Shown here: positions 1 to 14,087 of the stretch, piece after piece | How positions within the stretch are numbered: the first letter of the stretch is position 1 | Layout: each line of letters opens with the position of its first letter | Assembly (NCBI GenBank): GCA_003500955.1 | Contig: DNQP01000018.1 | Coordinates: forward strand, 740-14,826 | Source of the DNA: Curvibacter sp. | GTDB lineage: Bacteria > Pseudomonadota > Gammaproteobacteria > Burkholderiales > Burkholderiaceae_C | Direction: 5' to 3' | Length of the DNA: 14,087 nt | Program-made: the position numbers and the translations under genes | Notes under the pieces: model-generated | Seen by the model: the letters and a program-made list of their open reading frames with translations, nothing else | Databases searched by the model: none | What the model was told of the DNA's origin: nothing

Positions 1-539
1 TGCTGGTGGGCATCAACCTGCTGCGCGAAGGTCTGGACATTCCCGAGGTGTCGCTCGTGGCCATTCTGGACGCTGACAAGGAGGGTTTCCTGCGCTCCGA
101 GCGGTCGCTGATCCAGACCATAGGCCGCGCGGCCCGTAACCTGAATGGCAAGGCCATTCTGTATGCGGATCGTGTAACGGACTCCATGGCCCGTGCCATC
201 GGCGAGACCGAGCGTCGCCGCGGCAAACAGCAGGAACACAACGTGGCACACGGCATCACACCGCGCGCCATCGTCAAGCAGGTGCGCGACCTGATCGACG
301 GCGTCTACAGCGAGAAGGCCGGCCGCGAGGCCGAGCGCCTGGAGCAGGAGGCCATGGCCCGCGCCCAAGTCGAGGACATGAGCGAGAAGGACGTGGCACG
401 AGAGATCAAGCGGCTGGAAAAGCAGATGCTGGAGCACGCGCGCAACCTGGAATTCGAGCAGGCGGCCCGGGTGCGCGACCAGCTGTCCCTGCTCAAGTCG
501 CGCGCCTTCGGCGCTGCCGTGCCCGACCAGACGGCCTGA
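1..539 (+). CDS. uvrB: UvrABC excinuclease subunit B, 3' end (partial)
   Basis: This is the C-terminal 178 or so residues of UvrB, the damage-verifying helicase-like subunit of nucleotide excision repair; the 5' part lies before the window. The visible part opens in the second helicase domain ([20 protein letters not shown]) and contains helicase motif [11 protein letters not shown]. It then runs into the linker and ends with a UVR domain, the coiled-coil hairpin that binds UvrC, recognisable from [27 protein letters not shown]. The reading frame is open from base 3 and the stop TGA is at 537-539. About 100 bp separate it from iscR, which has its own promoter-like sequence, so the two are probably separate transcription units. 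The identification is secure. Confidence 0.97.
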
Positions 540-603
540 AAGTCTTTTGCTGACAAGGACTTGCGACAATTCCCGGTGATCCCGAGCGAGCCACTGGGTT
601 TTT

Positions 604-628
604 TGGTAAACTTGAGTCCGTTACTCGG
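604..628 (+). promoter_or_regulatory. Likely isc promoter -10 with IscR operator
   Basis: An extended -10-like element (TGG then TAAACT, 604-612) sits next to an inverted repeat, GAGT-ccgtt-ACTC (614-626), inside CTTGAGTCCGTTACTCGG. The layout resembles the type 1 IscR site (GACT...AGTC arms followed by GG) that overlaps isc promoters in other proteobacteria. The arms here read GAGT/ACTC, so the match is partial. No convincing -35 is visible, which is common for extended -10 promoters. The inferred role is repression of the whole operon by [2Fe-2S]-IscR when clusters are plentiful. The site lies 15 to 39 bases before the iscR ATG. Confidence 0.5.
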
Positions 629-642
629 AAAAGGAGCTTGCC

Positions 643-1179
643 ATGCGCCTCACGACCAAAGGCCGCTTTGCGGTCACCGCCATGATCGATCTGGCCCTGC
701 GCCAGAACAATGGTCCTGTGACCCTGGCCGCCATCAGCCAGCGGCAGCAGATTTCACTGTCCTATCTGGAGCAGTTGTTCGGCAAGCTGCGCCGCCATGA
801 GCTGGTCGAATCCACCCGCGGTCCGGGCGGCGGCTACACCTTGGCGCGCAAGGCAGCCGACATCACCGTCGCTGACATCATCTTGTCGGTGGACGAGCCC
901 ATCGATGCCACCCAGTGTGGCGGCAAGGAAAACTGCCTGGGCGAGGGCGGTCGCTGCATGACGCACGAGCTCTGGGCTTCCCTGAACACCCGCATGGTCG
1001 AGTTCCTGGACTCGGTCACGCTGCAGAAGCTGGTTGACGACCAGTTGGCCAAGGGCATCACCATCGAGGACAAGCCGGCTGTCAAGCGCGCCATCTCGGC
1101 GGCACCCGTGGTCAAGCCGGTGCGCGTGAATGCGCCCAACTCGGTGTTCGCCCTGGGCAACGCCTTCTCCAAGTCCTGA
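643..1179 (+). CDS. iscR: IscR, Rrf2-family iron-sulfur cluster regulator
   Basis: This 178-residue transcription factor controls the isc operon that it heads. The N-terminal winged helix (residues 1-70, starting [19 protein letters not shown]) carries the recognition region and the wing motif [11 protein letters not shown]. The cluster-binding loop has Cys92, Cys98 and Cys105 followed by His108, the ligand set expected for a [2Fe-2S] cluster in IscR. The tail beyond residue 140 is longer than the E. coli protein and low in complexity, as is usual in betaproteobacteria. The ATG is preceded by a good ribosome site, AAGGAG (631-636). iscS follows after 28 bases, consistent with co-transcription and autoregulation. 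Confidence 0.97.
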
Positions 1180-1207
1180 TTTTTTCGACGTTTCTCTGTT
1201 TTTTCCC

Positions 1208-2428
1208 ATGGACATGACGCCCCACTTCCCTATCTATATGGACTACGGCGCCACCACGCCTTGCGACCCGCGCGTGGTGGACGCGATGATCCCCTGGTTG
1301 CGCGAGCACTTCGGCAACCCGGCCTCCCGCAGCCACGCCTGGGGCTGGGAGGCGGAGGAGGCCGTGGAGAAGGCCCGCGGCCATGTTGCCGACCTGATCG
1401 GCGCCGATCCTCGCGAGATCGTCTGGACGTCCGGTGCGACCGAGTCCATCAACCTGGCCCTCAAGGGCGCAGCCCAGTTCTACAAGGGCAAGGGCAAACA
1501 CCTGATCACCCTCAAGACCGAGCACAAGGCTGTGCTCGACACCATGCGTGAGCTCGAGCGCCAAGGCTTCGACGTTACGTACATGGACGTCAAGGAAGAC
1601 GGCCTGCTGGACCTGGACGCGCTCAAGGCGGCCATCCGCCCCGACACCATCCTGATCAGCATCCTGTTCGTCAACAACGAGATCGGTGTGATCCAGGACA
1701 TTCCTGCCATCGGCGCGCTTTGCCGTGAGAAGGGCATCCTGTTGCACGTGGACGCCGCCCAGGCCACGGGCCGGGTCGAGATCGACATGGCCAAGCTGCC
1801 CATCGACCTGATGAGCATGACGGCGCACAAAACGTATGGCCCCAAAGGCGTCGGCGCTCTTTACGTGCGCCGCAAGCCCCGCGTGCGCATCGAGGCACAG
1901 ATGCACGGCGGTGGGCACGAGCGTGGCATGCGCTCGGGCACCCTGCCTACCCACCAGTGCGTTGGCATGGGCGAGGCCTTCCGCATCGCCAAGCTGGAGA
2001 TGGCTCAGGATCTGGAAAAGGCGCGTCGCCTGCAGAAGCGCCTGCTTGACGGCCTCAAGGACATCGAGCAGGTCTACATCAACGGCAGCCTCGAGCGCCG
2101 GGTGCCGCAGAACCTCAACATGAGTTTCAACTTCGTCGAGGGCGAGTCGCTGATCATGGGTATCAAGGGCCTGGCGGTGTCGTCCGGCTCGGCCTGCACC
2201 TCGGCCAGCCTGGAACCCAGCTATGTGCTGCGCGCCCTGGGCCGCAGCGACGAGCTGGCCCACAGCAGCCTGCGCATGACCATCGGACGTTTCACGACCG
2301 AGGAAGAGATCGACTACGCGATCACCACCATCAAGCACAACGTGGCCAAGCTGCGTGAGCTGAGCCCGCTCTGGGAGATGTTCCAGGACGGCGTCGACCT
2401 CAGCACGATTCAATGGGCGGCTCACTGA
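1208..2428 (+). CDS. iscS: IscS cysteine desulfurase
   Basis: This PLP-dependent enzyme removes sulfur from L-cysteine and passes it as persulfide to IscU; it also feeds tRNA thiolation. From ATG 1208 it is 406 residues, close to the 404 of E. coli IscS. It opens with [18 protein letters not shown], matching the family start. Key residues: His106 (TEHKAVL), the PLP lysine Lys208 ([13 protein letters not shown]) and the persulfide cysteine Cys330 ([14 protein letters not shown]). The C-terminal stretch ([20 protein letters not shown]) is the conserved IscU-interacting end. The frame is open further upstream to 1130 but this overlaps iscR and lacks family similarity. No clear ribosome site precedes 1208; the ATG at 1214 is an alternative start. 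Confidence 0.97.
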
Positions 2429-2446
2429 GCCCGAAGGAGAAAAATC

Positions 2447-2833
2447 ATGGCATACAGCGAAAAAGTCATCGACCACTACGAAAACCCCCGCAATGTCGGC
2501 TCTTTTGACAAGGGTGACGACACGGTAGGCACCGGCATGGTGGGCGCACCGGCCTGCGGCGACGTGATGAAGCTGCAGATCAAGGTGAACCCAAGCACCG
2601 GCGTGATTGAAGACGCGCGCTTCAAGACCTACGGCTGTGGTTCGGCCATCGCCTCCAGCTCGCTCGTGACCGAGTGGGTCAAGGGCAAGACCCTGGACGA
2701 AGCGGCGGCGCTGAAGAACAGCCAGATCGCCGAAGAGCTGGCTCTGCCGCCCGTCAAGATCCATTGCTCCATCCTGGCCGAGGATGCGATCAAGGCCGCT
2801 GTGGACGACTACCGCAAGAAGCACGTGAACTGA
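2447..2833 (+). CDS. iscU: IscU iron-sulfur cluster scaffold
   Basis: This 128-residue scaffold is where the [2Fe-2S] cluster is built before transfer. The cluster ligands are visible: Cys37 with Asp39 (APACGDVM), Cys64 ([12 protein letters not shown]) and His106-Cys107 ([11 protein letters not shown]). The motif LPPVK at residues 100-104 is the known HscA recognition site, matching the presence of hscB and hscA downstream. A strong ribosome site, AAGGAG at 2434-2439, precedes the ATG, the best in the operon. This suits a protein needed in larger amounts than its neighbours. It lies 18 bases after iscS and 2 bases before iscA. Confidence 0.98.
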
Positions 2834-2835
2834 AG

Positions 2836-3159
2836 ATGGCCGTCTCCCTGACTGAAGCTGCCGCCCGGCACGTGACCCGCTACCTGTCCAAACGAGGCAA
2901 GGGCGTGGGCGTGCGCCTGGGCGTCAAGACCACGGGCTGCTCCGGCCTGGCCTACAAGCTCGAGTACGTGGACGAGATCGCCCCCGAGGACATCGTCTTC
3001 GAAGGGCATGGCGTCAAGGTGCTGGTCGATCCCAAGAGCCTGTCCTACATCGATGGGACCGAGTTGGATTTCGTGCGCGAAGGCCTGAACGAAGGCTTCA
3101 AGTTCAACAATCCCAATGAACGCGATCGCTGCGGTTGCGGCGAGTCGTTCCGGGTGTGA
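2836..3159 (+). CDS. iscA: IscA, A-type iron-sulfur carrier
   Basis: This 107-residue A-type carrier moves iron or clusters from the IscU scaffold to target apoproteins. The three conserved cysteines are present: Cys35 in [11 protein letters not shown], and Cys99 and Cys101 in the C-terminal CGCGESF motif. The start ATG at 2836 lies 2 bases after the iscU stop, and no separate ribosome site is needed if translation is coupled. Its TGA overlaps the GTG start of hscB in the four bases GTGA. The assignment to IscA rather than ErpA or SufA rests on operon position and the ESF ending. Confidence 0.96.
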
Positions 3160-3683
3160 ACCTCCAGTCTGACGATTTCGAGCTGTTCGGCCTGCCGCGA
3201 CGCTACGCGCAGGACCGAGCCGCCATCGACGCCCGCTGGAAAGATCTGCAGCGCGAAGCCCATCCCGACAGGTTCGCGGCCCAGGGCGCGGCAGCGCAGC
3301 GTGTGGCCATGCAGTGGTCGGTGCGCATCAACGAGGCCTACCAGCGCCTGAAAGACCCGCTCAAGCGCGCCGCCTATCTGTGTGAACTGCATGGTGCGGC
3401 TGTGAATGCCGAGAACAACACGGCCATGCCCGCCGAATTCCTGATGCAGCAGATGGCCTGGCGCGAGGCGCTCGACGACGCGCAGGACACGGCGGCACTC
3501 GATGCCTTGAGCGACGAAGTCAATCGCAGCCGCCGCAGCTTGTTGCAACGTTGCGAGCAACTGATGGACGGTTCACAGGACTACACCGGTGCCGTGGCCC
3601 AGGTGCGGGCCCTGATGTTCATCGAGCGCTTTGCGCAGGACATCGAAGCCCGCTACGAGACTATGGAAAGCCGCCTCGGGTGA
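3156..3683 (+). CDS. hscB: HscB co-chaperone (J-protein)
   Basis: HscB delivers IscU to HscA and stimulates its ATPase. With the GTG start at 3156 the protein has 175 residues, typical for the family, and begins [14 protein letters not shown]. The J domain occupies about residues 1-75 with the essential HPD at 36-38 (REAHPDRF). The C-terminal three-helix domain that binds IscU follows (from about residue 85). An in-frame TTG at 3135 would give a slightly longer protein but lies well inside iscA; the GTG that overlaps the iscA stop (GTGA) is preferred, as it allows coupled translation. A gap of 38 bases follows before hscA. Confidence 0.94.
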
Positions 3684-3721
3684 CAATACCGCCCCTTTTT
3701 ACTGGCTAGAACAGAACAACG

Positions 3722-5578
<1,857 letters not shown>

Positions 5579-5599
5579 GCCCTCACCGAAAGAAGCAGC

Positions 5600-5938
5600 A
5601 TGCCCGTCATCAAGATCCTGCCCCATCCCGAATACTGCCCACAGGGCGCCGAGATCAGCGCACCCGCCGGCACCTCGATCTGCGAGGCTATGCTCGACAA
5701 CCACATCAACATCGAGCACGCCTGTGACATGAGCTGCGCCTGCACCACCTGTCACGTCATCGTGCGCCAGGGCTACAACTCGCTCAACGAAGCGGACGAA
5801 AACGAGGAAGACCTGCTGGACCGCGCCTGGGGCCTGGAGCCGCAGTCGCGCCTGAGTTGCCAGGCCATCCTGGCCCAGCAGGATCTGGTGGTCGAGATCC
5901 CCAAGTACTCCATCAACCACGCCAAAGAGAATCATTAG
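5600..5938 (+). CDS. fdx: ISC-type [2Fe-2S] ferredoxin
   Basis: This 112-residue adrenodoxin-type ferredoxin supplies electrons for cluster assembly on IscU. The cluster ligands follow the C-x5-C-x2-C...C pattern: Cys42, Cys48, Cys51 and Cys87 (HACDMSCACTTCHVIV and RLSCQAI). An additional Cys46 lies inside the motif, as is normal for this family. The C-terminus (VEIPKYSINHAKE) is the conserved end of the isc ferredoxin. It closes the operon: the stop is followed within 31 bases by a hairpin terminator. No iscX is found between fdx and the terminator. Confidence 0.97.
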   Translation: MPVIKILPHPEYCPQGAEISAPAGTSICEAMLDNHINIEHACDMSCACTTCHVIVRQGYNSLNEADENEEDLLDRAWGLEPQSRLSCQAILAQQDLVVEIPKYSINHAKENH

Positions 5939-6055
5939 CCCCCACGGTCGCCACTGCGTGTGCTGCGCCGCCCCCCCGAGGGGGCGCGTTTTTCCCTTTC
6001 GGGGCTGACCGCCAAGCGGCTCAGAGCCTTGGGGCGGCCCGGCGGATAAACCACT
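5939..6055. repeat. GC-rich palindromic intergenic element
   Basis: The whole spacer between fdx and dnaQ is made of inverted repeats. It contains the terminator hairpin at 5969-5986 and a second imperfect hairpin at 6009-6037, whose outer arms are CCGCCAAG and CTTGGGGCGG with an inner GGCTC-A-GAGCC. From memory, similar 'CGCCCCC..GGGGGCG' spacers with the neighbouring CCACTGCGTGTGCTGCGCC are scattered between genes in Comamonadaceae genomes. That is recalled knowledge and was not checked. No coding capacity is seen here. Confidence 0.5.
5969..5993 (+). terminator. Rho-independent terminator of the isc operon
   Basis: A GC-only stem of 7 base pairs, CGCCCCC (5969-5975) with GGGGGCG (5980-5986), has a 4-base loop and is followed after CG by TTTTT (5989-5993). 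It lies 31 bases after the fdx stop and is well placed to end the isc transcript. Confidence 0.75.
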
Positions 6056-6079
6056 GAGCGCTGCGGCTATGATTGCCGC

Positions 6080-6781
6080 ATGCGCCAGATCGTCCTCGAC
6101 ACCGAAACCACGGGCCTGTCCGCCGATAACGGCGACCGCATCATCGAGCTGGGTTGCGTGGAGCTGCTCAACCGCAAGCTGACGGGCAACAACCTGCATT
6201 TCTATTTCAATCCCGGGCGCGACAGCCACGAGGATGCGCTGCGGGTGCACGGCATCAGCAACGAGTTCCTGCGCGACAAGCCCAGGTTCGCCGAGCTGGC
6301 CGAAGAGATCCTGGCCTACCTCCGGGGCGCCGAGATCATCATCCACAACGCGGCCTTCGACGTCGGCTTCCTGAACAAGGAGCTGGAGCTCATCGGCAAG
6401 CCGCGTTTTGCCGAATTCGTCTCGGGCATCACCGACACCCTGGCCATGGCCAAGGAGATGTACCCGGGCAAGCGCAACTCGCTTGATGCGCTTTGCGATC
6501 GACTGGGGGTGGACAACTCGGGTCGCACGCTGCACGGTGCCTTGCTGGACGCCGAGCTGCTGGCCGACGTCTACATCAACCTCACGCGTGGCCAGGACGC
6601 ACTGCTGATCGATGCGGCCGAGACCAGTTCGGCGGCCGGGAGCTTCGAGCGCATCGATCTCAGCGCTTTCGAGCTGCCGGTCCTCAGGGCCTCGGAGCAG
6701 GAGCAGGCGGCGCACGAGGATCTGCTGAACCAGCTCGACAAGGCCAGTGGTGGCAAGACCGTCTGGCGTGCAGCTGCCTGA
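6080..6781 (+). CDS. dnaQ: DNA polymerase III epsilon subunit (3'-5' exonuclease)
   Basis: This is the proofreading subunit of the replicative polymerase, 233 residues against 243 in E. coli. The DEDDh exonuclease residues are all visible: Asp7 and Glu9 in the opening VLDTETTGL (Exo I), Asp94 in HNAAFDVGFL (Exo II), and His152 with Asp157 in LHGALLDAELLADVY (Exo III). The domain ends near residue 172. The C-terminal tail (about 195-233) is the usual flexible region that binds the alpha subunit, ending GGKTVWRAAA. The ATG at 6080 directly starts the family-conserved sequence. An ATG at 6069 is out of frame. It stands alone between the isc terminator and the tRNA. Confidence 0.95.
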   Translation: MRQIVLDTETTGLSADNGDRIIELGCVELLNRKLTGNNLHFYFNPGRDSHEDALRVHGISNEFLRDKPRFAELAEEILAYLRGAEIIIHNAAFDVGFLNKELELIGKPRFAEFVSGITDTLAMAKEMYPGKRNSLDALCDRLGVDNSGRTLHGALLDAELLADVYINLTRGQDALLIDAAETSSAAGSFERIDLSAFELPVLRASEQEQAAHEDLLNQLDKASGGKTVWRAAA

Positions 6782-6799
6782 AGAGGCCGCTGCAAGTTG

Positions 6800-6837
6800 T
6801 GGCATAATGCTGGTTTTCCTGAAGACGCAAACGTCTT
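6800..6837 (+). promoter_or_regulatory. tRNA-Val promoter and leader hairpin
   Basis: An extended -10 sequence, TGG followed by CATAAT (6800-6808), lies 43 bases before the tRNA. No clear -35 is seen. The leader then contains a perfect 6-bp hairpin, AAGACG-CAAA-CGTCTT (6822-6837), which may mark or protect the 5' leader before RNase P processing. The promoter call is moderate; the hairpin itself is plain in the sequence. Confidence 0.5.
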
Positions 6838-6850
6838 GCGCGCGGATTCA

Positions 6851-6925
6851 GGGCGATTAGCTCAGCGGTAGAGCACTGCATTCACACTGCAGGGGTCACA
6901 TGTTCGATCCATGTATCGCCCACCA
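6851..6925 (+). tRNA. tRNA-Val (anticodon CAC), CCA encoded
   Basis: A full cloverleaf can be folded by hand. The acceptor GGGCGAT pairs with ATCGCCC. The D arm is GCTC...GAGC. The anticodon stem CTGCA/TGCAG encloses the loop TTCACAC, with anticodon CAC at 6883-6885, which reads the valine codon GUG. The T arm is ACATG-TTCGATC-CATGT. The discriminator A and CCA are encoded (6922-6925). The gene is intact even though an integrase lies next to it, so the integrated element has either kept or restored its 3' end. Its close neighbour is the bidirectional terminator at 6929. Confidence 0.96.
6895..6925. other. Candidate attachment site (attL) in the tRNA-Val 3' end
   Basis: A tyrosine integrase gene ends about 90 bases from this tRNA and points toward it, the standard arrangement when an element has integrated into a tRNA gene. 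The usual crossover region is the T arm to CCA. The exact core cannot be set because the matching attR copy must lie beyond the right edge; no second copy of this sequence is seen in the window. The limits given are therefore nominal. Confidence 0.45.
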
Positions 6926-6997: not shown

Positions 6998-7017
6998 GTG
7001 TAATTGCCGGTGTAATT
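6998..7017. repeat. Short direct repeat next to the integrase end
   Basis: GTGTAATT occurs twice, at 6998-7005 and 7010-7017, 12 bases apart, between the terminator and the integrase stop codon. Spacing and position resemble arm-type binding sites of tyrosine integrases, but two 8-mers are weak evidence and this may be chance. Confidence 0.25.
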
Positions 7018-8027
7018 CACGCCCGCGCCGCCTTTCGGGGTGGCGCGGGCTTTTTCTTTTTGGCGGTCGGCAGCACCAGCTTGCTGAGCTTGTTCAGCGC
7101 AGCGCGTTGCTGCTCGATCTGCAGGTGGGCGTATCGCTGGGTGGTCTGGGTGTTGGTGTGGCCGAGGATCTTGCCGATGGTGTAGAGGTCGACGCCCAGG
7201 CCCAGCAGGATGCTGGCGCAGCTGTGGCGCAGGTCGTGGAAGTTGACGTGCTCCATGTCGGCGGCCACGCGCGCGCGGCGCCAGGCGGTCTTGGCGCCGT
7301 CTACGGTGATCTGCAGGGGGAAGTGCTTGAGCCAGGGCCGAAGGGCGGGGATGATGGGCACGACGCGTGGCCGCTGGGTCTTGGTGTGGCTGCTGGGGAT
7401 GGTGATGGTATCCGCACCGATGTGTTCCCGCTGGATCTGGAAGATCTCGCCGCGTCTGGCACCTGTAAGCAGCGCGAACCAGATGGCGGCCTGTGCCTCG
7501 ATGCTGCAGTGGCTGGCGATCTCTCGCACCTGGTCGACAGTGAGGAAGACCTCGCGCTTGTTGTTGACGGGCACGTTGCGGATGCGCAGGCCGTAGTTCT
7601 CTGGCGTGAGGTTTTGCTCCCACGCCAGTGCCAGGCCCTTCTTGGCGGTGGCCAGGCTGCGGTTGATGGTTGCGGGGGCGTAGTGGCCACGCATGTCCTT
7701 AACGACGTGGGCACAGAACTCGCGTGCCTGGCTGGCCATGTATCGTTCGGCCCAGGGGGCTAGGCGCTGCGCATGGTAGGCCGAGCTGGTGGCGCTGCGC
7801 AGGTGCTTGGCGTGGCGCGTGTAGAGGCCCAGTGCGGCCGTCATGGGGATGTCGCCCGGGGTGGTGGCCTTGCGTGTCTGCGGCTGCTCCAGGCCTGTGC
7901 GCAGCTCGGCCTCTATGCGCTTGGCATCACGCGCAGGTGTGCCTTGCGGCAGGATGCGGTGAATTCGTTTGCCGCGGACCATAAGTCCGACGTGATGCCG
8001 ACCTTGAGCGTCTTGCCAGATGGACAT
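7017..8027 (-). CDS. Tyrosine recombinase (element integrase)
   Basis: This 336-residue site-specific recombinase integrates and excises the element at tRNA-Val. After an N-terminal beta-rich arm-binding-like part (MSIWQDAQGRHHVGLMVRGK) and a core-binding helical domain (about residues 60-150), the catalytic domain has the full set of residues: Arg191 (LLTGARRGEIF), Lys216 (SSHTKTQR), His264 and Arg267 (FHDLRHSC), His290 (ILGHTNTQTT) and the nucleophile Tyr299 (QRYAHL). The tail is basic. ATG 8027 is chosen because it gives the usual integrase opening, although no clear ribosome site precedes it; the next ATG is at 7982. It overlaps the upstream AlpA-like frame by 115 bases in another frame. 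It is the last gene of the element operon. Confidence 0.95.
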   Translation of the reverse strand: MSIWQDAQGRHHVGLMVRGKRIHRILPQGTPARDAKRIEAELRTGLEQPQTRKATTPGDIPMTAALGLYTRHAKHLRSATSSAYHAQRLAPWAERYMASQAREFCAHVVKDMRGHYAPATINRSLATAKKGLALAWEQNLTPENYGLRIRNVPVNNKREVFLTVDQVREIASHCSIEAQAAIWFALLTGARRGEIFQIQREHIGADTITIPSSHTKTQRPRVVPIIPALRPWLKHFPLQITVDGAKTAWRRARVAADMEHVNFHDLRHSCASILLGLGVDLYTIGKILGHTNTQTTQRYAHLQIEQQRAALNKLSKLVLPTAKKKKPAPPRKAARA

Positions 8028-8191
8028 GATTGATGCGTCTTGAGCCAGGTCTTGACTTCGGCGAGGTTGTAGCGCTTCCCCCGCCGCCCGATGGGCGTGA
8101 ATGGTAGCCCATCGAGCTCGAGGCGTCGAACGGTGGATTCGCTGATGGCCAGCGCCGCGCAGAGTTGCTGGCGCGTGAGCTCGGTAGTCAT
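7913..8191 (-). CDS. AlpA/MerR-like helix-turn-helix protein (possible excisionase)
   Basis: This small DNA-binding protein has 92 residues from ATG 8191. Residues 4-55 form a MerR/AlpA-type winged helix: LTRQQLCAALAISESTVRRL is the helix-turn-helix and LPFTPIGRRGKRYNLAEVKTWL the wing. Such proteins beside integrases commonly act as excision factors or activators of integrase expression; this role is inferred from position. A strong ribosome site, GAGGAGGAG (8195-8203), lies before the ATG, which itself overlaps the previous stop as ATGA (8188-8191). The frame is open further upstream to 8212, but the ribosome site favours 8191. The C-terminal third (after about residue 57) overlaps the integrase gene and has no recognised fold. 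Confidence 0.8.
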   Translation of the reverse strand: MTTELTRQQLCAALAISESTVRRLELDGLPFTPIGRRGKRYNLAEVKTWLKTHQSCPSGKTLKVGITSDLWSAANEFTASCRKAHLRVMPSA

Positions 8192-8937
8192 GCGCTCCTC
8201 CTCTGTTCCCACTCCCGCGTCAGCTCACCCTTCCACCCTGGTGGTGGCGTGAAGGTGAAGCGGTCATCGCGCGGGGTGGGGGCGCGTTGGATCTGCACGT
8301 GCGCGGGGATGGTGACGGTGGCTGACTCGGCCAGGCGGATGTCGCCGGCGGCGCGGGCCTTGCTGCCCTTGATGGTGATGGGCGCACCGTGCTTGCGCGT
8401 TCGCGCGGGCTTGGCCTGGCTCTGCGTGGGCTGAACTGGCGGCGGCGCTTCGCCGCGATCCCAGGCTTCGGCGTGGGCCAGCAGGGTGAAGTACCGATAG
8501 GTCCTGGGAGTGCCTCGGCGGAGTAAGCGGCCGGCCTCGGCGTGCTTGGGGAGCTTGCCGCCAAGCGTGCCGAGGGACGCTCCGGTGGCGCGCGCGATAT
8601 CGGGCAGGGTGGCGCCTGTGGGGGCGCTGCAGGCGCGCTCGATGGCCAGGGTGTAGCGGTCGCGCGGGTCGAGGCGCGGGCCTTCCGCGGCCGCGGCTGC
8701 GGCCTGGTCGAGCTGGGCCTTGGTCCATGCGACCAGGTCAGTCCTGTGGGTGAAATAGCGGTAGTTACGGCGTGTGCCACCGCGGTGCAGCTCGCCGGCG
8801 CTCACCATGGCCGGCAGCTTGTAGAGCAGCGTAGCCTTGGCGGCCGCGCACAGGGGCAGCAGCTCGGGCAGGCTGCGGCCCTGGGGTACGCTGCAGAGCC
8901 GCTGCAGCTGGGCGCCGTAGACGTCTTTTCGGCCCAT
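8188..8937 (-). CDS. Protein with two winged-helix-like repeats, unknown function
   Basis: From ATG 8937 this protein has 249 residues. It has a clear internal duplication: residues 7-72 and 97-160 share a pattern of LP-helix, then T-L-x2-KLP, then AG-x-L-x-RxGT-x-R-x-YRYFT, ending in AW. The pattern looks like two winged-helix units, each ending in an aromatic strand (NYRYFTHRTDLVAW and TYRYFTLLAHAEAW), which suggests DNA binding. A basic linker follows, and the C-terminus (residues 219-249, with FTFTPPPGWKGELTREWEQR) looks like a short phage-type tail motif. The ATG lies 2 bases after the preceding stop (TGACCATG), so coupling is likely. A start at 9012 is possible but would overlap the upstream gene. 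No function is claimed beyond likely DNA binding. Confidence 0.75.
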   Translation of the reverse strand: MGRKDVYGAQLQRLCSVPQGRSLPELLPLCAAAKATLLYKLPAMVSAGELHRGGTRRNYRYFTHRTDLVAWTKAQLDQAAAAAAEGPRLDPRDRYTLAIERACSAPTGATLPDIARATGASLGTLGGKLPKHAEAGRLLRRGTPRTYRYFTLLAHAEAWDRGEAPPPVQPTQSQAKPARTRKHGAPITIKGSKARAAGDIRLAESATVTIPAHVQIQRAPTPRDDRFTFTPPPGWKGELTREWEQRRSA

Positions 8938-8939
8938 GG

Positions 8940-9866
8940 TCAATCCGCCGGTCGCTTCGGACGCCACAGAATGGGATGGGCTGGCCACAGGTCGTTGGCG
9001 GAAAGAACCCACCAGCTGCCGTTCATCACCTTGGCGTCATGTACGCCGGTGCTGCCGGCGGTGATGACCTCGACGACCGTGCCGTCGTCGGGGTAGCCGA
9101 ACATTTCGAGCCAGCCCAGGCCCCGCAGCTCATGCCAGGCGCGGAACATTTCGCCGAGCATGGCGTCCTCTGCAGCCGACGCTTGCCCAGCCACCGGGCC
9201 GTGGCAGTCCTCCAGCGGGCCGCCCGGCTTGGCACGCACGTGCTCGATGGCCTGGCCCGCCGGCACAGTGCGCCAGTCTGGCCACTGCCGCGTTTCGTTC
9301 TTGGCCTGCTTGGCCACGAGGGCCTCGATGATCTGCTGGGGCGTGGCGCCAGTGCGCCAGGCGCCGTCCAGGGCGAGGATGGCGACGTCGATCCACTCGC
9401 TGAGGTCGGTGGGCGCAGCCTCGATCTCAAGCAGCTCCTTGCGGATGTGGTCGATGACCCCCTGGGTGCGCATGCCGGGGCCGAAGGTCTGCTCGCTGAA
9501 GGTGCGCTGGCGCTCCAGGTGCTGCAGCATGTCGAAGGTGCCGGCGGGCACCAGATCCACCAGCTCGCGCCTATCGTCCGGGTGGTTCTTGTTGAGGGTG
9601 CGCATGCGCACGTAGGCGCTGTCCCGGTCGGTGTACACGTTGCCTACGTGGGCGCCGTTGTGCGTGATGCTGGTGGCCACGACTTGGCGCCGCGGAATGA
9701 ACGTGAGCCGCTTGGCCGCGATCTCGACCAGGCAGTCCTCCACGGTGTCGCCCTCCACGGCCTCGACTGTGGTGGGGTTGCCCAGGGCCCGGCTGAGCGC
9801 GGCGATGCGGGTGCGGCGGACCAGGACGTATTCGTCCTGGTCGCACGGCTGCAGCTGTGCGCTCAT
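8940..9866 (-). CDS. DUF550 (MazG-like dATP/dGTP pyrophosphohydrolase) protein
   Basis: This 308-residue protein has three parts. Residues 1-110 have no clear family. Residues about 115-200 match the DUF550 family, annotated as dATP/dGTP pyrophosphohydrolase and common in phages: FSEQTFGPGMRTQGVIDHI, then KELLEIEAAPTDLSEWID, LDGAWRTGATPQQIIEAL and KNETRQWPDWR. The acidic pairs Glu144/Glu147 and Glu157/Asp160 fit the metal-binding EExxE/ExxD pattern of MazG-like folds. The C-terminus (DGTVVEVITAGSTGVHDAK, WWVLSANDLWPAHPI) is an additional small domain. Such enzymes may adjust nucleotide pools; whether that matters for reverse transcription here is only a thought. The start ATG overlaps the ParB-like stop by 4 bases (ATGA, 9863-9866). 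A longer upstream open frame was rejected. Confidence 0.8.
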   Translation of the reverse strand: MSAQLQPCDQDEYVLVRRTRIAALSRALGNPTTVEAVEGDTVEDCLVEIAAKRLTFIPRRQVVATSITHNGAHVGNVYTDRDSAYVRMRTLNKNHPDDRRELVDLVPAGTFDMLQHLERQRTFSEQTFGPGMRTQGVIDHIRKELLEIEAAPTDLSEWIDVAILALDGAWRTGATPQQIIEALVAKQAKNETRQWPDWRTVPAGQAIEHVRAKPGGPLEDCHGPVAGQASAAEDAMLGEMFRAWHELRGLGWLEMFGYPDDGTVVEVITAGSTGVHDAKVMNGSWWVLSANDLWPAHPILWRPKRPAD

Positions 9867-11779
9867 GCCTCGGCTCCGGCTGCTGCTTCGCCCTGCTGGC
9901 CAGCCTCGGCCGCGCCGGAGGACGCGGCCGCTTCCTCGCTCTGCATCGCGACAGCGATGCCTCGCTGGGCCTCTTCGGGCGAGAGCTTCGCGGCCTTCTT
10001 CTTCGACTTGGCCGGGGATGCAGCGGCAGCGGGGGGCGAAGTGGTGGGCTGCGCAGCGGGGTCGTTGGGCGAGGCCGATTTTTTCCCCTTGGCCTTGGGC
10101 TGCACGCCCAGCTCCTCGCGCATCTCTTCCTGGACTTGGGCCTGTATGGCCGCAGCGTCGAGGCCGGCGCTGTTGGCCAGGCTGATGAGGGCAGGCGCGG
10201 GGGTGATGACGCGCTGGTTGTCGTTCCATTGCTCGATGTCGCTGGCTTGCTTGCAGGCGATGTAGATGCAGATGCGGCTGCCCAGCTCGGTGTCGGGGAT
10301 GGCCTGGATGGCTTTTTCCAGCGCGTCGGTGTCGCCGTGGGCGGGATCGTCGGGCGTGAGGTCGAGCGCGAGGGCAATGGCTTCCTCGAAGTCGTAGACG
10401 TCGCTGAGGCACAGGTAGGTGAGCAGGGTGCGCAGCACTTCAGGCTGGAAGGCGCTGACGACGCCGGCCAGCAGCTGGGGGCGCAGGGCTTCGAGGGTGC
10501 GGGTGCGCCAGGTGGTCTCGTACTTTTTGGCCAGCTCGTGGCGCTTGCGCTCCTCCTCGGCCTGCAGGCGGGCTTTGGCGTGGGCCTTGTCTTCCTTCGG
10601 CGTGCCCTTGCCTTTGGCGGCGGCCTGGTCGAGCAGATCATCCAGCTCCCCGGCCAGCTCCTCGGTGACGACCTTGATGGACTTCTGGGTGTGCGGGCAG
10701 ATGATGAGCCGCGTGGCGTCCTTGATCTTGGCCTTGTCGAAGAACTCCTCCAGCAGCATGTGCCGCGGGGTCTGTCCGCCGGTGCGCGGGTCGTAGATGT
10801 GGTTCTCGACTTTTTCATAGCCGATGATGAAGTGACTGTTGGGCATCACCTTCTCAGCCTCTTCGCCCTCGATGACCTGCATGCCGGTCTTGCGGGCCTT
10901 GGCCACCACCTGGGCGTGGTGGGCGGCTTCCTTGGCGTGGAAGCAGGGCGGGTCGGTGCAGACGTCGGGACTGTCGACGTCGCTGAAGAGATCGGGGTTG
11001 GCACCGGTGCGCAGCTGGCAGTCGGTGCAGGCGGGCTTGTCGCTGCAGAGCTTGGCGTCCTTGATGTCGAACACGGCGCGCTCCAGGCGCAGCATGACGT
11101 TCTGCTCGAGCCAGATCTTGGCGCTGCGGTAGCTCAGGCGCAGTTCACCGCCATCGCCGAAGGTTTCGGTGAGGGCCTTCAGTGCCTTGAGCTGCAGCTT
11201 CTGGTCCGGGATGCGGGCGATGAGCTCGGCGCGGCTGGCGTCGAGTTTGCCCTCGCGCAGTGCGGCCTTGGCCTCTTGGCACAGGTCCAGCAGCTTGAAG
11301 CGGTTGAAGATGTAGGTGCGGCTCTTGCCCACCTTGGCGCAGAGCTCATCCTTGGTGATTCCGGTGGCCTGGATGAGGGCTTCGTAGCCCTCGGCCTCTT
11401 CGAGCGGCGTGAGGCCGTCGCGCTGCAGGTTCTCGATGATCTGGATCTCGATCACCTGGGCGTCTGTCAGATCGCGCACGATGGCGGGGATGGTGGCCAT
11501 GCCGGCCAGCTGGCTGGCGCGGTAGCGGCGCTCGCCGGCGACGAGCTCGAAGACCGGCAGAGTGGCGCTGGCCGCGTACTCGCGGAGGATGTCTTCCTGT
11601 CGCCACGAGGGCAGGGGCCGCACGAGCACGGGCTGGTGCACGCCGCTGGCCTTGACGCTGTCGGCCAGCTCTTGCAGCTTGGCTGCGTCGAAGTGCTTGC
11701 GCGGGTTGGTGAGGCTGCGCGCGATCAGGGGCAGCTCGATGTTCTGGAACTGGCCCTGGGTGAGTTCGTTGGTGCTCAT
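9863..11779 (-). CDS. ParB/Spo0J-like protein with Cys cluster and long C-terminus
   Basis: This 638-residue protein starts at ATG 11779, with the ribosome site AAAGGAAA a few bases upstream. Residues about 12-125 are a ParB N-terminal (CTPase/Srx-fold) domain: NPRKHFD (25-31), GVHQPVLVRPL, the GERR motif AGERRYRASQLAG (81-93) and ENLQRDGLTPLEEAEGY (116-132). A helix-turn-helix follows (141-163, ITKDELCAKVGKSRTYIFNRF). Residues 245-281 hold a cysteine/histidine cluster (Cys245, 251, 254, 274, 279, His281) that looks metal-binding. The rest is helical, then a low-complexity Ala/Pro/Lys tail from about residue 555. Known relatives act in plasmid or phage segregation or transcription control. 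Its start overlaps the RT stop (ATGA, 11776-11779), so it is probably translated with the retroelement genes. A longer frame to 12130 only shadows the RT. Confidence 0.85.
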   Translation of the reverse strand: MSTNELTQGQFQNIELPLIARSLTNPRKHFDAAKLQELADSVKASGVHQPVLVRPLPSWRQEDILREYAASATLPVFELVAGERRYRASQLAGMATIPAIVRDLTDAQVIEIQIIENLQRDGLTPLEEAEGYEALIQATGITKDELCAKVGKSRTYIFNRFKLLDLCQEAKAALREGKLDASRAELIARIPDQKLQLKALKALTETFGDGGELRLSYRSAKIWLEQNVMLRLERAVFDIKDAKLCSDKPACTDCQLRTGANPDLFSDVDSPDVCTDPPCFHAKEAAHHAQVVAKARKTGMQVIEGEEAEKVMPNSHFIIGYEKVENHIYDPRTGGQTPRHMLLEEFFDKAKIKDATRLIICPHTQKSIKVVTEELAGELDDLLDQAAAKGKGTPKEDKAHAKARLQAEEERKRHELAKKYETTWRTRTLEALRPQLLAGVVSAFQPEVLRTLLTYLCLSDVYDFEEAIALALDLTPDDPAHGDTDALEKAIQAIPDTELGSRICIYIACKQASDIEQWNDNQRVITPAPALISLANSAGLDAAAIQAQVQEEMREELGVQPKAKGKKSASPNDPAAQPTTSPPAAAASPAKSKKKAAKLSPEEAQRGIAVAMQSEEAAASSGAAEAGQQGEAAAGAEA

Positions 11780-13131
11780 GGGTTTCCTTTCGGTTGAAAA
11801 ACTTTGGTCATGTCGCCGGCGATCACCAGGCCACGCCGGCGCATCAGCTGGCCCAGCAGGGCGCGGTCCTGGTGGCTGTGGGTGGCCTGGCGAAGCAGGC
11901 CGAAGGTGCTGTTGGCCGATGCATGCAGGTCTTCCCGTGGCATGTCCTGCAGGCGCGCCATGGCCATGCGCACGGTGCGGCGACGGGTGATGCGGTGGTG
12001 TGGCTTGAGCAGGTGGCCCACGAAGTCGATGCCACGGGCGACGGGTTGCAGGATGGTCTTGCGCGGGTTGAGCTGCAGGTGCAAGCTGGCCAGCTGCTGC
12101 TCGATCTGTACGCGGGCCTGGTTGAGCCACTGGGGGCTCTGGTGCAGGAGGATGAAGTCGTCCACGTAGCGCACGTAGTGGGGCGCCCGCAGGCGGTGCT
12201 TGATGAACTGGTCCAGGTCGTCGAGCAGGACGTTGGCGAAGAACTGGCTGCTGAGGTTGCCGATGGGCAGGCCGTGATCTGCCGGTGCGTTGAAGAGGCT
12301 CTTGTGCGGCGGCACCAGGGCCAGCTCGGCGCGGCTGCCGCGCACCTCCACGTCTTGCCTGGGGTCGTGCATGAGGATGGTTTCAGCCAGGGACATCCAC
12401 CAGGGCTCCGCCACTTGGCGCTGCAGCTGCTCCAGCAGCACGGTCTTGTCGATGCTGACGAAGAAGTTGGCCAGGTCGCACTTCATGTAGTGGGCGGGCT
12501 GGCTCCAGTTGCGGGTGATGCTGCGCACCTGGTGCTCCAGCCGCTGGGCGGCGTACAGGGTGCCGCGGCCGGGGATGCAGGCGCAGCTGTCTGCCACGAA
12601 CCGTGCGTGGAAGCGCGGGGCGATGTGGTTGTAGAGCAGGTGATGGACGATGCGGTCGCGGAAGCGGGCAGCCCAGACTTCGCGCGGTTTGGGGTGGGTG
12701 ATGACGAAGCAGACCGATGGGCCGGGCTGCCAGGCGTCGCTGGCCAGTTCTTCGAAGAGCTGGTAGAGGTTGTGCTCGGCCATGGCCTCGAAGGCCTGGG
12801 CACTGGCGCTGGTGCGCTTGGTGCGCCGGCACTCGAGGTAGGCCTGCACGAGCCGCTGGAACAGGTGTGGATCTGCGGACGGCAACAACCGAGCCTTCGT
12901 AGCTCTTGTGGTTGTTGTTCTGGTTGCCGTTGTTGAAGTTGCAATTCCAGGCGTAGGAGGCGTACCGTTCGCGCTATTGCGGCCGCCACCCCGATGGCTC
13001 AGGGCAGAGGCTGCACCGGACCGGGCCCGCGCGCTGGCGGCGGTATCCGTGGTGTGCATGTCGGTGGCCTTGTGGGCCAGCGGCGCGACCAGATTCACTG
13101 TGCGCACGGGCATGAGAGCCTTGACTGTCAT
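11776..13131 (-). CDS. Diversity-generating retroelement reverse transcriptase
   Basis: This 451-residue reverse transcriptase copies the template repeat into mutated cDNA. The polymerase region begins near residue 88 (PHLFQRLVQAYLECRRTKR). It has the DGR-type segment RDRIVHHLLYNHIAPRFHA and DSCACIPGRGT (158-191), the first catalytic Asp219 in MKCDLANFFVSID, the motif LPIGNLSSQFFAN (288-300) with the IGxxxSQ variant typical of DGR enzymes in place of QGxxxSP, and YVDD at 322-325 (YVRYVDDFILL). The C-terminal thumb is short. No maturase, nuclease or retron RNA is seen. The start at 13131 overlaps the avd stop as ATGA (13128-13131). That start makes residues 57-87 be encoded by the template repeat itself, giving the odd Thr/Arg-rich TSTTATRTTTTRATK. 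A later non-ATG start such as the GTG at residue 95 cannot be excluded. Confidence 0.95.
   Translation of the reverse strand: MTVKALMPVRTVNLVAPLAHKATDMHTTDTAASARARSGAASALSHRGGGRNSANGTPPTPGIATSTTATRTTTTRATKARLLPSADPHLFQRLVQAYLECRRTKRTSASAQAFEAMAEHNLYQLFEELASDAWQPGPSVCFVITHPKPREVWAARFRDRIVHHLLYNHIAPRFHARFVADSCACIPGRGTLYAAQRLEHQVRSITRNWSQPAHYMKCDLANFFVSIDKTVLLEQLQRQVAEPWWMSLAETILMHDPRQDVEVRGSRAELALVPPHKSLFNAPADHGLPIGNLSSQFFANVLLDDLDQFIKHRLRAPHYVRYVDDFILLHQSPQWLNQARVQIEQQLASLHLQLNPRKTILQPVARGIDFVGHLLKPHHRITRRRTVRMAMARLQDMPREDLHASANSTFGLLRQATHSHQDRALLGQLMRRRGLVIAGDMTKVFQPKGNP
12872..12963 (-). repeat. DGR template repeat (TR)
   Basis: This 92-bp sequence aligns without gaps to the variable repeat at 13538-13629. 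Read on the - strand in the target frame it has many AAC codons and would encode FNNGNQNNNHKSYEGSVVAV. There are 28 adenines on that strand. The VR differs at 7 positions, all adenines in the TR (12909, 12912, 12913, 12916, 12919, 12931 and 12934 on the + strand, where each is T). None of the 64 other positions differs. The right part on the - strand (GGCTCGGTTGTTGCCGTCCGC) is identical in TR and both VR copies and is the likely initiation region (IMH). The TR sits just before the conserved RT core and inside the RT frame. Confidence 0.96.
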
Positions 13132-13490
13132 GCTGCAGGCGCCCTGTTCGTTTTCTTGAGCCAGCCGCCGGCCTGCTTGCCGATGCTGCCCAGCAGCTCG
13201 ATGGAATCTGCCCAGAGCTTGGGCGAGATGTACCGCGCGTCATGGCTGACGCGCAGCAGGACCGTGATGGCGCGCTCTTTGGCGAGCAGCTGCTCGATGT
13301 ACTCGGCGCGGGTGTCGCGCTGGGTGGCATTGGCAAGAGCCATCAGATCCAGCATGTCGACGCAGTGCTGGGTGATCTTCTCGCCCAGCGCGCGCTTGAC
13401 GGTGCGCGGCATCTGCACCTGTGCCTTGATGGCCAGATCCAGCAGCCGCACGCCGGTGCGGTGGATGGGGAGTTCGGTATGCAAGGCCAT
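13128..13490 (-). CDS. avd: Avd-like four-helix-bundle DGR accessory protein
   Basis: This 120-residue protein matches the accessory variability determinant (bAvd) family. That family forms a positively charged pentamer of four-helix bundles, binds the RT and the template RNA, and is needed for mutagenic retrohoming in the Bordetella phage system. Family marks: MPRTVKRALGEKITQHCVDML in helix 1-2, helical spacing through LALANATQ to LLAKERAITVLLRVSHDARYIS, and the C-terminal signature IGKQAGGWLKKTN. It lies directly between the target gene and the RT, the same order as mtd-avd-TR-brt in the phage BPP-1. Its stop overlaps the RT start (ATGA). Only a weak ribosome site precedes its ATG, so it is probably coupled to the target gene. 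Confidence 0.9.
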   Translation of the reverse strand: MALHTELPIHRTGVRLLDLAIKAQVQMPRTVKRALGEKITQHCVDMLDLMALANATQRDTRAEYIEQLLAKERAITVLLRVSHDARYISPKLWADSIELLGSIGKQAGGWLKKTNRAPAA

Positions 13491-13507
13491 GGCGGCGAGC
13501 TCAGCTC

Positions 13508-13523
13508 AAAAGGACTGAAGGAC
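13508..13523. repeat. 16-bp direct repeat, copy 1, after target gene 1
   Basis: AAAAGGACTGAAGGAC on the + strand (GTCCTTCAGTCCTTTT on the coding strand) lies 8 bases after the stop of target gene 1. It is identical to 14026-14041, which follows target gene 2. It contains the internal tandem GTCCTT-CA-GTCCTT. It is not palindromic, so it is not a simple hairpin terminator. Confidence 0.85.
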
Positions 13524-13531
13524 CAAAGGGC

Positions 13532-14005
13532 TCAGACTCTGCGGACGGCAACAACCGAGCCTTCGTAGCTCTTGGGGAGGTCGTGCTGGTTGCCGTAGTA
13601 GAAGTTGCAATTCCAGGCGTAGGAGGCGTCTTCCTCGTGCGTCTCGCAGGACCAGTGCCACGTGGGCTCCAGGTGGGGCTTGCAGTTGGCGTACAGCAGG
13701 GCCAGCTCCTGGCGGGTGGGCAGGTGGCCGCCGGCGCCTTCTATGAGCTTGCCTCTGGCCCAGTCCATGGCGGACTCCCAGTTGAGCTTGCTTGCAGGGC
13801 GGGCTGCGAGCAGCACCAGGTGGTGCTGGTGCTGGCCGTTTTCGTCCAGCACGGCGCCGGCGTAGTGTTCGCCGGGGTGCAGGGTGATGGTGCAGTCTTC
13901 GATCTGGATCTCGCGCGATTGCTGGGCCTGGCTGGCCAGCTGCTCGATCATCTTGGCCAGCTCGGTCTGGCGGGCCTGGACTTCCTCAAGGGTGATGGGG
14001 GGCAT
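13532..14005 (-). CDS. DGR target protein 1 (variable, C-type-lectin-like/DUF1566 type)
   Basis: This 157-residue protein carries the variable repeat in its last 32 residues. Residues 5-32 form a likely coiled coil (EEVQARQTELAKMIEQLASQ). Residues about 45-157 look like the DUF1566/formylglycine-enzyme type of C-type-lectin fold used by DGR targets: HLPTRQELALLYANC, then PTWHWSCETHEEDASYAW and the final KSYEGSVVAVRRV. Variable residues are Tyr136, Tyr137, His141, Asp142, Leu143 and Pro144; the template would give Asn-Asn and Asn-Asn-Asn-His. No signal peptide or membrane segment is visible, so it is probably cytoplasmic or part of a virion. The ribosome site AGGAG (14011-14015) precedes ATG 14005. 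Its ligand is unknown. Confidence 0.92.
   Translation of the reverse strand: MPPITLEEVQARQTELAKMIEQLASQAQQSREIQIEDCTITLHPGEHYAGAVLDENGQHQHHLVLLAARPASKLNWESAMDWARGKLIEGAGGHLPTRQELALLYANCKPHLEPTWHWSCETHEEDASYAWNCNFYYGNQHDLPKSYEGSVVAVRRV
13538..13629 (-). repeat. DGR variable repeat 1 (VR1)
   Basis: This 92-bp segment covers codons 126 to about 156 of target protein 1 and ends 4 bases before the first base of the stop codon. Compared with the TR, on the coding strand the changes are A to C (3), A to T (3) and A to G (1), all within the 26-bp stretch 13575-13600. Six codons are altered: 136, 137, 141, 142, 143 (two bases) and 144. Flanking codons, including the central GGC AAC CAG, are unchanged. 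Confidence 0.96.
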
Positions 14006-14025
14006 GTTTGCTCCTGGTGGTGATG

Positions 14026-14041
14026 AAAAGGACTGAAGGAC
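14026..14041. repeat. 16-bp direct repeat, copy 2, after target gene 2
   Basis: Exact second copy of AAAAGGACTGAAGGAC. It begins at the base right after the stop of the second target gene and lies just before the ribosome site of target gene 1. See copy 1 at 13508-13523. Confidence 0.85.
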
Positions 14042-14087
14042 TCAGGCGGTGAGCGGAATCAAGCGGACGGCAACAACCGAGCCTTCG
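14042..14087 (-). CDS. Second DGR target gene, last 14 codons (partial)
   Basis: The - strand at the right edge reads EGSVVAVRLIPLTA followed by TGA (14042-14044). The first part, EGSVVAVR, is the same as the end of target protein 1 and in the same frame relative to the repeat. The last six residues (LIPLTA) differ, so this is a separate gene and not an artefact of the repeat. The rest of the gene lies beyond the window. It precedes target gene 1 in the operon by about 36 bases. Confidence 0.8.
   Translation of the reverse strand, partial: EGSVVAVRLIPLTA
14063..14087 (-). repeat. Variable repeat 2 (VR2), constant end only
   Basis: 25 bases, GCGGACGGCAACAACCGAGC plus CTTCG on the + strand, are identical to the ends of the TR (12875-12899) and VR1 (13541-13565). 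This is the constant initiation part; the adenine-rich variable part would start about 10 bases beyond the window. Homology to the TR stops at the GCGG boundary, 3 bases earlier than in VR1. Confidence 0.85.

Follow-up and report, generated by a model that had tools for sequence, protein, structure and literature searches.

Does a stretch of 14,087 nucleotides from a draft Curvibacter sp. genome (GCA_003500955.1, 89% complete) hold a diversity-generating retroelement (DGR), and if so, how is its template RNA organised and which proteins does it diversify? The stretch, referred to here as the window, covers positions 740-14826 of contig DNQP01000018.1 (our contig C131, 15,681 bp; locus L012 where contig coordinates are given). 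Very probably it carries a DGR lodged in a prophage, in which the template repeat (TR) part of an RNA would be copied into cDNA with random errors at adenines, and the cDNA pasted into the variable repeats (VRs) of two adjacent small genes whose products have predicted C-type-lectin folds. The template RNA would consist of a structured leader, RT-15, plus the TR. The reverse transcriptase (RT) and the accessory variability determinant (Avd) would be recruited through this 5' leader instead of a 3' spacer, and the RT would be translated through leader and TR from an upstream start, most simply the ATG that overlaps the avd stop. The targets would be early- or lysogeny-phase binding proteins, not virion tail tips. 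The identification as a DGR is supported by adenine-specific repeats, an Avd, a DGR-class RT and a lectin-fold target. The initial annotation had placed a complete element at 12872-14087; the DGR is real, but that span leaves out most of the RT (11776 to about 12870), and the second target runs past the window. The cassette comprises the following features.

11776-13131, minus strand: RT open reading frame of 451 codons, with its first ATG and the avd stop overlapping in ATGA; the conserved RT domain begins at about residue 88
12872-12963, minus strand: TR, 92 bp, with 28 adenines on the coding strand
12962-13144, minus strand: RT-15 RNA (Rfam RF03018), the structured leader, beginning in the final avd bases and covering the first 2 nt of the TR
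13128-13490, minus strand: avd, 120 amino acids (Pfam, PHROG)
13532-14005, minus strand: target 1, 157 amino acids, predicted C-type-lectin fold, Lcl_C-like (from Lcl_C, homologues and predicted fold)
13538-13629, minus strand: VR1, the variable repeat in target 1
14042-14087, minus strand: target 2, its 3' end only, carrying the end of VR2 at 14063-14087; the whole gene spans L012 14781 to 15477 and so extends past the window

TR and VR1, the first direct-repeat family in a repeat search of the window, aligned without gaps over 92 bp. All 7 mismatches fell at TR adenines on the minus (coding) strand, which reproduced the initial annotation; its chance estimate of about 1 in 7,000 was recomputed as C(28,7)/C(92,7) = 1.35e-4, or about 1 in 7,400. 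A third copy of the VR end, 25 bp at 14063-14087, occupies the extreme end of the window. The VR2 to which it belongs, read past an assembly gap, differed from the TR at 9 of 76 readable positions, each of them a TR adenine (P 1.4e-5), so that the two VRs together gave 16 of 16 differences at adenines and no change elsewhere. Since the TR differs from the VRs only at its A positions, the cassette likely rewrites both lectin-like genes repeatedly. The last 37 nt are the same in TR and VR1, and a separate difference between IMH and IMH* (initiation of mutagenic homology) was not seen. Searching the genome itself with the TR returned four weak matches on other contigs (E 0.03 to 0.7).

VR1 sits in the C-terminal part of target 1, where the predicted fold agrees with the C-type-lectin-like target of the initial annotation. 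The changed residues are 136, 137 and 141-144, the positions claimed there, and they amount to 6 of the 17 variable-capable residues. In 105 homologues (from 120 listed among the 756 found), mean entropy was 2.00 bits over the 17 VR residues whose codons have a TR adenine at their first or second position, against 0.28 over the remaining 15 VR residues. A first structure model built from 11 sequences was poor (pLDDT, the predicted local distance difference test, 61.3), and a sequence search of the PDB with target 1 gave no match below E 0.032. The last 46 bases of the window are the 3' end of the second target gene. Beyond them the contig runs into 315 N (L012 14827-15141, inside VR2) and then into the rest of this second lectin-like gene. 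The ends flanking the N run have 13 VR bases in common, and the joined readable halves of target 2 give 122 amino acids identical over the full length to protein P0121, which is intact on other contigs. Most likely, then, the gap arose in assembly, within VR2, and its stated length is probably wrong. A third target hidden in the gap was also considered; the same 13 shared bases and the identity to P0121 over all 122 residues make it needless. P0121 and target 1 belong to the same protein family, PHROG 4245, whose function is unknown, and inspection by eye found no hydrophobic signal peptide at the target N-termini. As a side observation, variable regions of this kind may break assemblies.

The RT carries IGNLSSQ at residue 290 and YVDD at residue 322, confirming both motifs reported before. 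An SQ motif in region 4 marks DGR-class RTs in the available passages of the DiGReF study (PMC3521204). The RT domain matched PHROG 1423 with 363.9 bits. Among solved structures the closest to it in sequence is 8ub7 (3.6e-34), which we take to be the BPP-1 DGR complex, followed by a CRISPR-associated RT (3.3e-9) and a group II maturase RT (3.1e-8). In a tree of 37 rows, with retron RTs left out, several long branches and a bootstrap that had not settled, the query fell inside the DGR group and apart from all three group II intron RTs (100/100). On the whole the DGR reading thus withstood both refutation tests that the initial annotation proposed, this one on the grouping of the RT and the one on non-adenine VR changes in related strains (below). 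The naming of an Avd-like protein also holds, with 41.6 bits against Pfam bAvd (cut-off 40) and 5.8e-24 against PHROG 3206 ('Avd protein of DGR'). Across 13 unique close sequences, the window included, the ratio of nonsynonymous to synonymous change (dN/dS) was 0.14 and 0.22 in two parts of the RT domain, that is, purifying selection in the clade.

Relatives were sought among viral contigs, which yielded 21 loci, and in 199 genomes (this one included), where an RT match at 1e-20 was found in 15 and the close form in 7. The genome-contig scan gave two loci, the close one being L054 (Burkholderiales; RT identical in the tree to that of L017). At least two VRs were present in 33 of the 33 close-form loci scanned (L012, L013-L039 and L048-L052, several of them near-copies and five of them named phages). 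TR adenines accounted for 721 of the 737 differences over 61 VRs from 30 loci, in a hand-entered tally whose scan scoring leans to adenine through a lower mismatch penalty and which still contains some near-copies, copies L014, L019, L028 and L029 and all distant DGRs being left out. The same scan on BPP-1 put 17 of 18 differences at TR adenines.

Nine near-identical locus pairs were then compared. L018 (and its copy L019) and L020 showed no difference outside the VRs over 2,962 bp, 14 differences in VR1 and one in VR2, of which 13 and one, respectively, were at a TR adenine. Four pairs did not differ at all. L025 and L032 differed at 4 positions in VR1 (3 at TR adenines) and at 426 elsewhere, an excess that probably reflects an indel shifting the ungapped comparison out of register. 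The VR-only change between L018/L019 and L020 shows recent DGR activity in relatives. Active diversification of the target, as asserted in the initial annotation, thus stands for these relatives; for the Curvibacter genome we infer it. In a separate observation, several loci carry lectin-like targets with VRs about 3 to 7 kb from the TR (L021 1053-1556, L030 1030-1371, L024 4715-5149, L048 5761-6141).

How is the template RNA of this element built? RT-15 scored 151.4 bits over the full model in the window, against a gathering cut-off of 82. A scan of 30 sources found it in 18; the other 12, which lack it, were the distant DGRs L040-L047, BPP-1, Lagaffe, Bacteroides phage F2 and Vibrio VP58.5. 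It exceeded the cut-off in 7 of the 199 genomes, the same 7 that have the best RT matches. In all 18 loci its last 1-4 positions overlap the start of the TR, and its closing helix stops a few nucleotides ahead of the TR. An alignment of 16 sequences showed 26 of 49 pairs changed on both sides, a count that none of 500 shuffles reached, and 95.4% of cells pairing, compared with 29-39% in slid versions, although the structure was derived from the same alignment, which favours pairing. Synonymous change in the RT was reduced only up to residue 107 (0.255, 0.374) and stood at 0.44-0.58 from residue 108. The Rfam entry gives type sRNA and a name only. The family was reportedly described by Weinberg in 2017; our literature searches found no paper on RT-15, which does not prove absence, the presumed source lying outside what was searchable. 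Weak sub-cut-off RT-15-like matches were seen at L072, L073 and L074, in genomes without an RT match at 1e-20.

The spacing around the TR separates these loci from the known model. In the window, 164 nt of leader lie between the avd stop and the TR, and only 10 nt separate the TR from RT residue 91; across the RT-15 clade the two distances are 144-191 nt and 7-39 nt. In BPP-1 the TR follows avd directly (0 nt) and stands 186 nt from RT residue 91, with a 144-nt spacer between TR and brt that is matched by the Phage_DGR family (RF03022; 2882-2750, 3' of the TR). Vibrio VP58.5 (9 and 141 nt) and Lagaffe (31 and 326 nt) were also measured, as were L045 and L047, with 155 and 151 nt from TR to RT residue 91 and no avd found. 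Leader-first spacing occurs too in L040 (219 and 26 nt), L041 (221 and 58 nt) and Bacteroides phage F2 (128 and 42 nt), all without an Rfam match. In L042-L044 the VR/TR pair found is arranged differently, its adenine-rich member being downstream of the RT. Phage_DGR had no match in the window, and the 3'-spacer layout of BPP-1 was not found there. According to the available passages of PMC12875486, recruitment of RT-Avd and priming of cDNA synthesis are both functions of the 3' spacer in BPP-1. With 10 nt from TR to RT domain, the window has no space for a 3' spacer outside the RT coding sequence, and the leader may take over recruitment of RT-Avd. As an aside, a different leader RNA, as yet without a name, may be present in L040, L041 and L060, the closest DGRs that do not belong to the RT-15 clade.

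The TR also lies inside the RT reading frame, of which residues 1-87 span leader and TR. Where the avd stop overlaps the ATG as ATGA, the frame was open through leader and TR in 18 of 19 unique sequences. Outside that group L030 and L038 are also open; L048, L050, L051 and L052 are open through the TR and most of the leader with a stop near the leader start, and L049 has stops in the leader and within the TR. All 11 distinct gap blocks in leader and TR (18 sequences) were multiples of three, a result that is partly built in because the sequences were picked as in frame. In neutral simulations the share of runs that stayed free of stops was 0.3% over the entire region, 9.7% over the leader by itself and 9.6% over the TR by itself. 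Residues 1-8 on their own had a dN/dS of 0.31. TTG or GTG starts inside the TR are possible in the window (residues 82 and 83), and an RT start within the leader is possible. A start inside the TR was discarded as a general rule, since no start is available from residue 55 to residue 95 in L025, L032, L034 and L039, four loci of which three are unique. Neither the overlap of TR and RT frame nor multiple targets are new: the available passages of PMC3521204 classed the overlap as group 3 in 2012 and already knew multiple VRs.

The cassette appears to lie in a prophage, whose ends seem to be marked by a 48-bp repeat of tRNA-Val. The features that bear on this are listed below.

6878-6925, plus strand: attL core, the 48-bp 3' end of a tRNA-Val gene (6851-6925), with an exact repeat on contig C42 (attR)
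7017-8027, minus strand: tyrosine integrase of the prophage (Pfam, PHROG)
7913-8212, minus strand: helix-turn-helix protein, excisionase-like by PHROG (1.1e-6), with HTH_17 below cut-off
9863-11779, minus strand: ParB-like protein downstream of the RT (Pfam, PHROG)

The attR copy (L075 6205-6252) has no whole tRNA around it, and the tRNA-Val gene in the window adjoins the integrase gene. A ParB-like relative follows the RT in 9 of the 21 viral loci. Up to attR, contig C42 carries one gene for a tail fibre, the only one seen in the prophage, and one for tail-fibre assembly; searching the genome with the TR revealed no VR in this region. In Magia, Haboob, QDWS and Cruim01 the cassette stands among integrase, repressor, recombination or methylase genes. 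In L021 it comes after RecT and RecE-like genes and before the integrase, and the opposite strand holds a tail spike gene; L020 has a CII-like gene upstream, likewise on the opposite strand. Given this integrase and recombination setting and the lack of a hydrophobic signal, the targets may act early or in lysogeny and not on the tail. No title or abstract in the literature searched was recognised as dealing with early-region DGR targets.

A number of results weigh against the reading set out so far. Sixteen of the 737 differences in the clade lay off TR adenines, so that the claim of adenine-only variation holds for relatives as a strong bias and not without exception; one L018/L020 difference in VR1 was at a T site, and the single VR2 difference of L027 from L026 or L028 was at a G. 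Activity in the Curvibacter genome is judged from one snapshot. Avd scored below the cut-off of its NCBIfam model (46.1 of 80) and target 1 below that of Pfam Lcl_C (30.1 bits, cut-off 34.9), and P0121 had no Pfam match. The 70 nt 3' of VR1, where BPP-1 has a hairpin, folded no better than shuffles (z 0.16). Nor did the window leader alone (z -0.20), and its structure therefore rests on covariation. L037 breaks the frame preservation, and the five named phages do not share the openness in full. dN/dS in the RT frame was 0.82 in the leader and 2.00 in the TR, values that rule out the TR as an N terminus under amino-acid selection; with no codon-level selection there, translation through leader and TR is argued solely from the preserved frame. 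Finally, a further target may lie in the prophage middle, outside the contigs examined.

Could these findings be explained otherwise? That the RT is of another class, a group II intron, retron or defence enzyme beside a chance repeat, can hardly be entertained. NCBIfam does list group II, retron, DRT (defence-associated reverse transcriptase) and AbiA models for the RT domain, but with scores far under the curated cut-offs (97.3 of 300 for TIGR04416, 47.5 of 235 for another); the tree (100/100, retrons not included) sets the enzyme with DGR RTs and away from the three group II RTs, and adenine-biased TR/VR pairs with an Avd recur in close relatives. A decayed or dormant DGR, with old VR differences and targets no longer diversified in this host, is less remote and still quite improbable. 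The single snapshot would fit it, as would a VR1 that departs from the TR at so few of its variable-capable residues. Yet the frames of RT, Avd and target 1 are open, an intact identical copy of target 2 exists elsewhere, the RT domain is under purifying selection, every difference in both VRs is at an A, and relatives show VR change without any other change.

For the RNA, an alternative is that RT-15 is an independent regulator of avd and RT expression and no part of the template RNA. It begins in the final avd codons and covers the region in which RT translation likely starts, a possible site for a translation regulator. We consider this unlikely, since its 3' end meets the 5' edge of the TR in 18 of 18 loci even though the leaders span 144 to 191 nt, its closing helix ends just before the TR, and the DGR RNA family of BPP-1 likewise abuts the TR, on the opposite side. 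For the proteins, the targets could, as in BPP-1, serve in the virion as receptor-binding proteins, with genes that only stand apart from the rest of the tail genes. Mtd of BPP-1 has a C-type lectin fold, as is predicted here; viral targets of clades 1, 4 and 6 are mostly tail proteins in the available passages of Roux 2021 (PMC8144416), and in those of the Magia announcement host-range change is proposed as one possibility (PMC7883833). It is doubtful all the same: the neighbours are integrase, excisionase, RecT/RecE, repressor or methylase genes, mostly on the same strand (the CII-like gene of L020 being opposite), tail spike and fibre genes lie elsewhere, no VR is present in the single tail-fibre gene that was seen in this prophage, and proteins of 122 and 157 amino acids matched no tail family and only PHROG 4245.

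How does this element compare with known systems? As in BPP-1, the order target-avd-TR-RT runs on one strand, with an Avd and an adenine-specific TR/VR pair. Unlike BPP-1, the window has its RT-15 leader before the TR and almost no room after it, and two small targets away from tail genes where BPP-1 has one tail-protein target. The match to the BPP-1 set and order in the initial annotation is thus right for the gene order, but not for the RNA layout and seemingly not for the kind of target gene. Closer is Burkholderia phage Magia (NC_070954), which has RT-15, Avd, an RT 54.6% identical and small lectin-fold targets near integrase and RecT. It differs in having three VRs, one about 7 kb from the TR, and an RT frame that stops about 30 nt after the avd stop. 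Its announcement speaks of a 'potential' DGR, and the available passages name no RNA element (PMC7883833). The overlap of the TR with the 5' part of the RT frame resembles group 3 of DiGReF, where multiple VRs occur in about a seventh of the set. The available passages of that study conclude that the arrangement has no bearing on the mechanism and no tight link to RT phylogeny (PMC3521204). In contrast, the adjacency of leader and TR is constant across the 18 RT-15 loci scanned.

What this analysis adds is the two-target, leader-first variant, together with a putative role for the leader. Tentatively, with doubts that slightly outweigh our confidence, we propose a second DGR template-RNA architecture in one clade of temperate phages of Pseudomonadota. 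In it a 5' leader would bind RT-Avd and the 3' spacer would be gone; in a subgroup, leader and TR would be translated to extend the RT at its N terminus, making one RNA recruiter, template and mRNA, and the targets would be intracellular or lysogeny-phase binding proteins as opposed to tail fibres. For enzyme recruitment by a DGR RNA, and for how cDNA starts and stops, BPP-1 serves as the experimental model, and a clade with conserved structure on the other side of the TR would reveal which features of the model hold generally. Such a leader would also give the Rfam family RT-15 a role, and the leader-first RNA of the two-target variant is testable. A further question raised by small early-region targets in temperate phages is what hypervariable binding proteins bring the phage when they probably sit elsewhere than on the tail.

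On the host side of the attachment site, positions 1-6800 of the window look, from translations and the usual gene order, like an isc cluster (iscR, iscS, iscU, iscA, hscB, hscA and ferredoxin) accompanied by a dnaQ-like gene.

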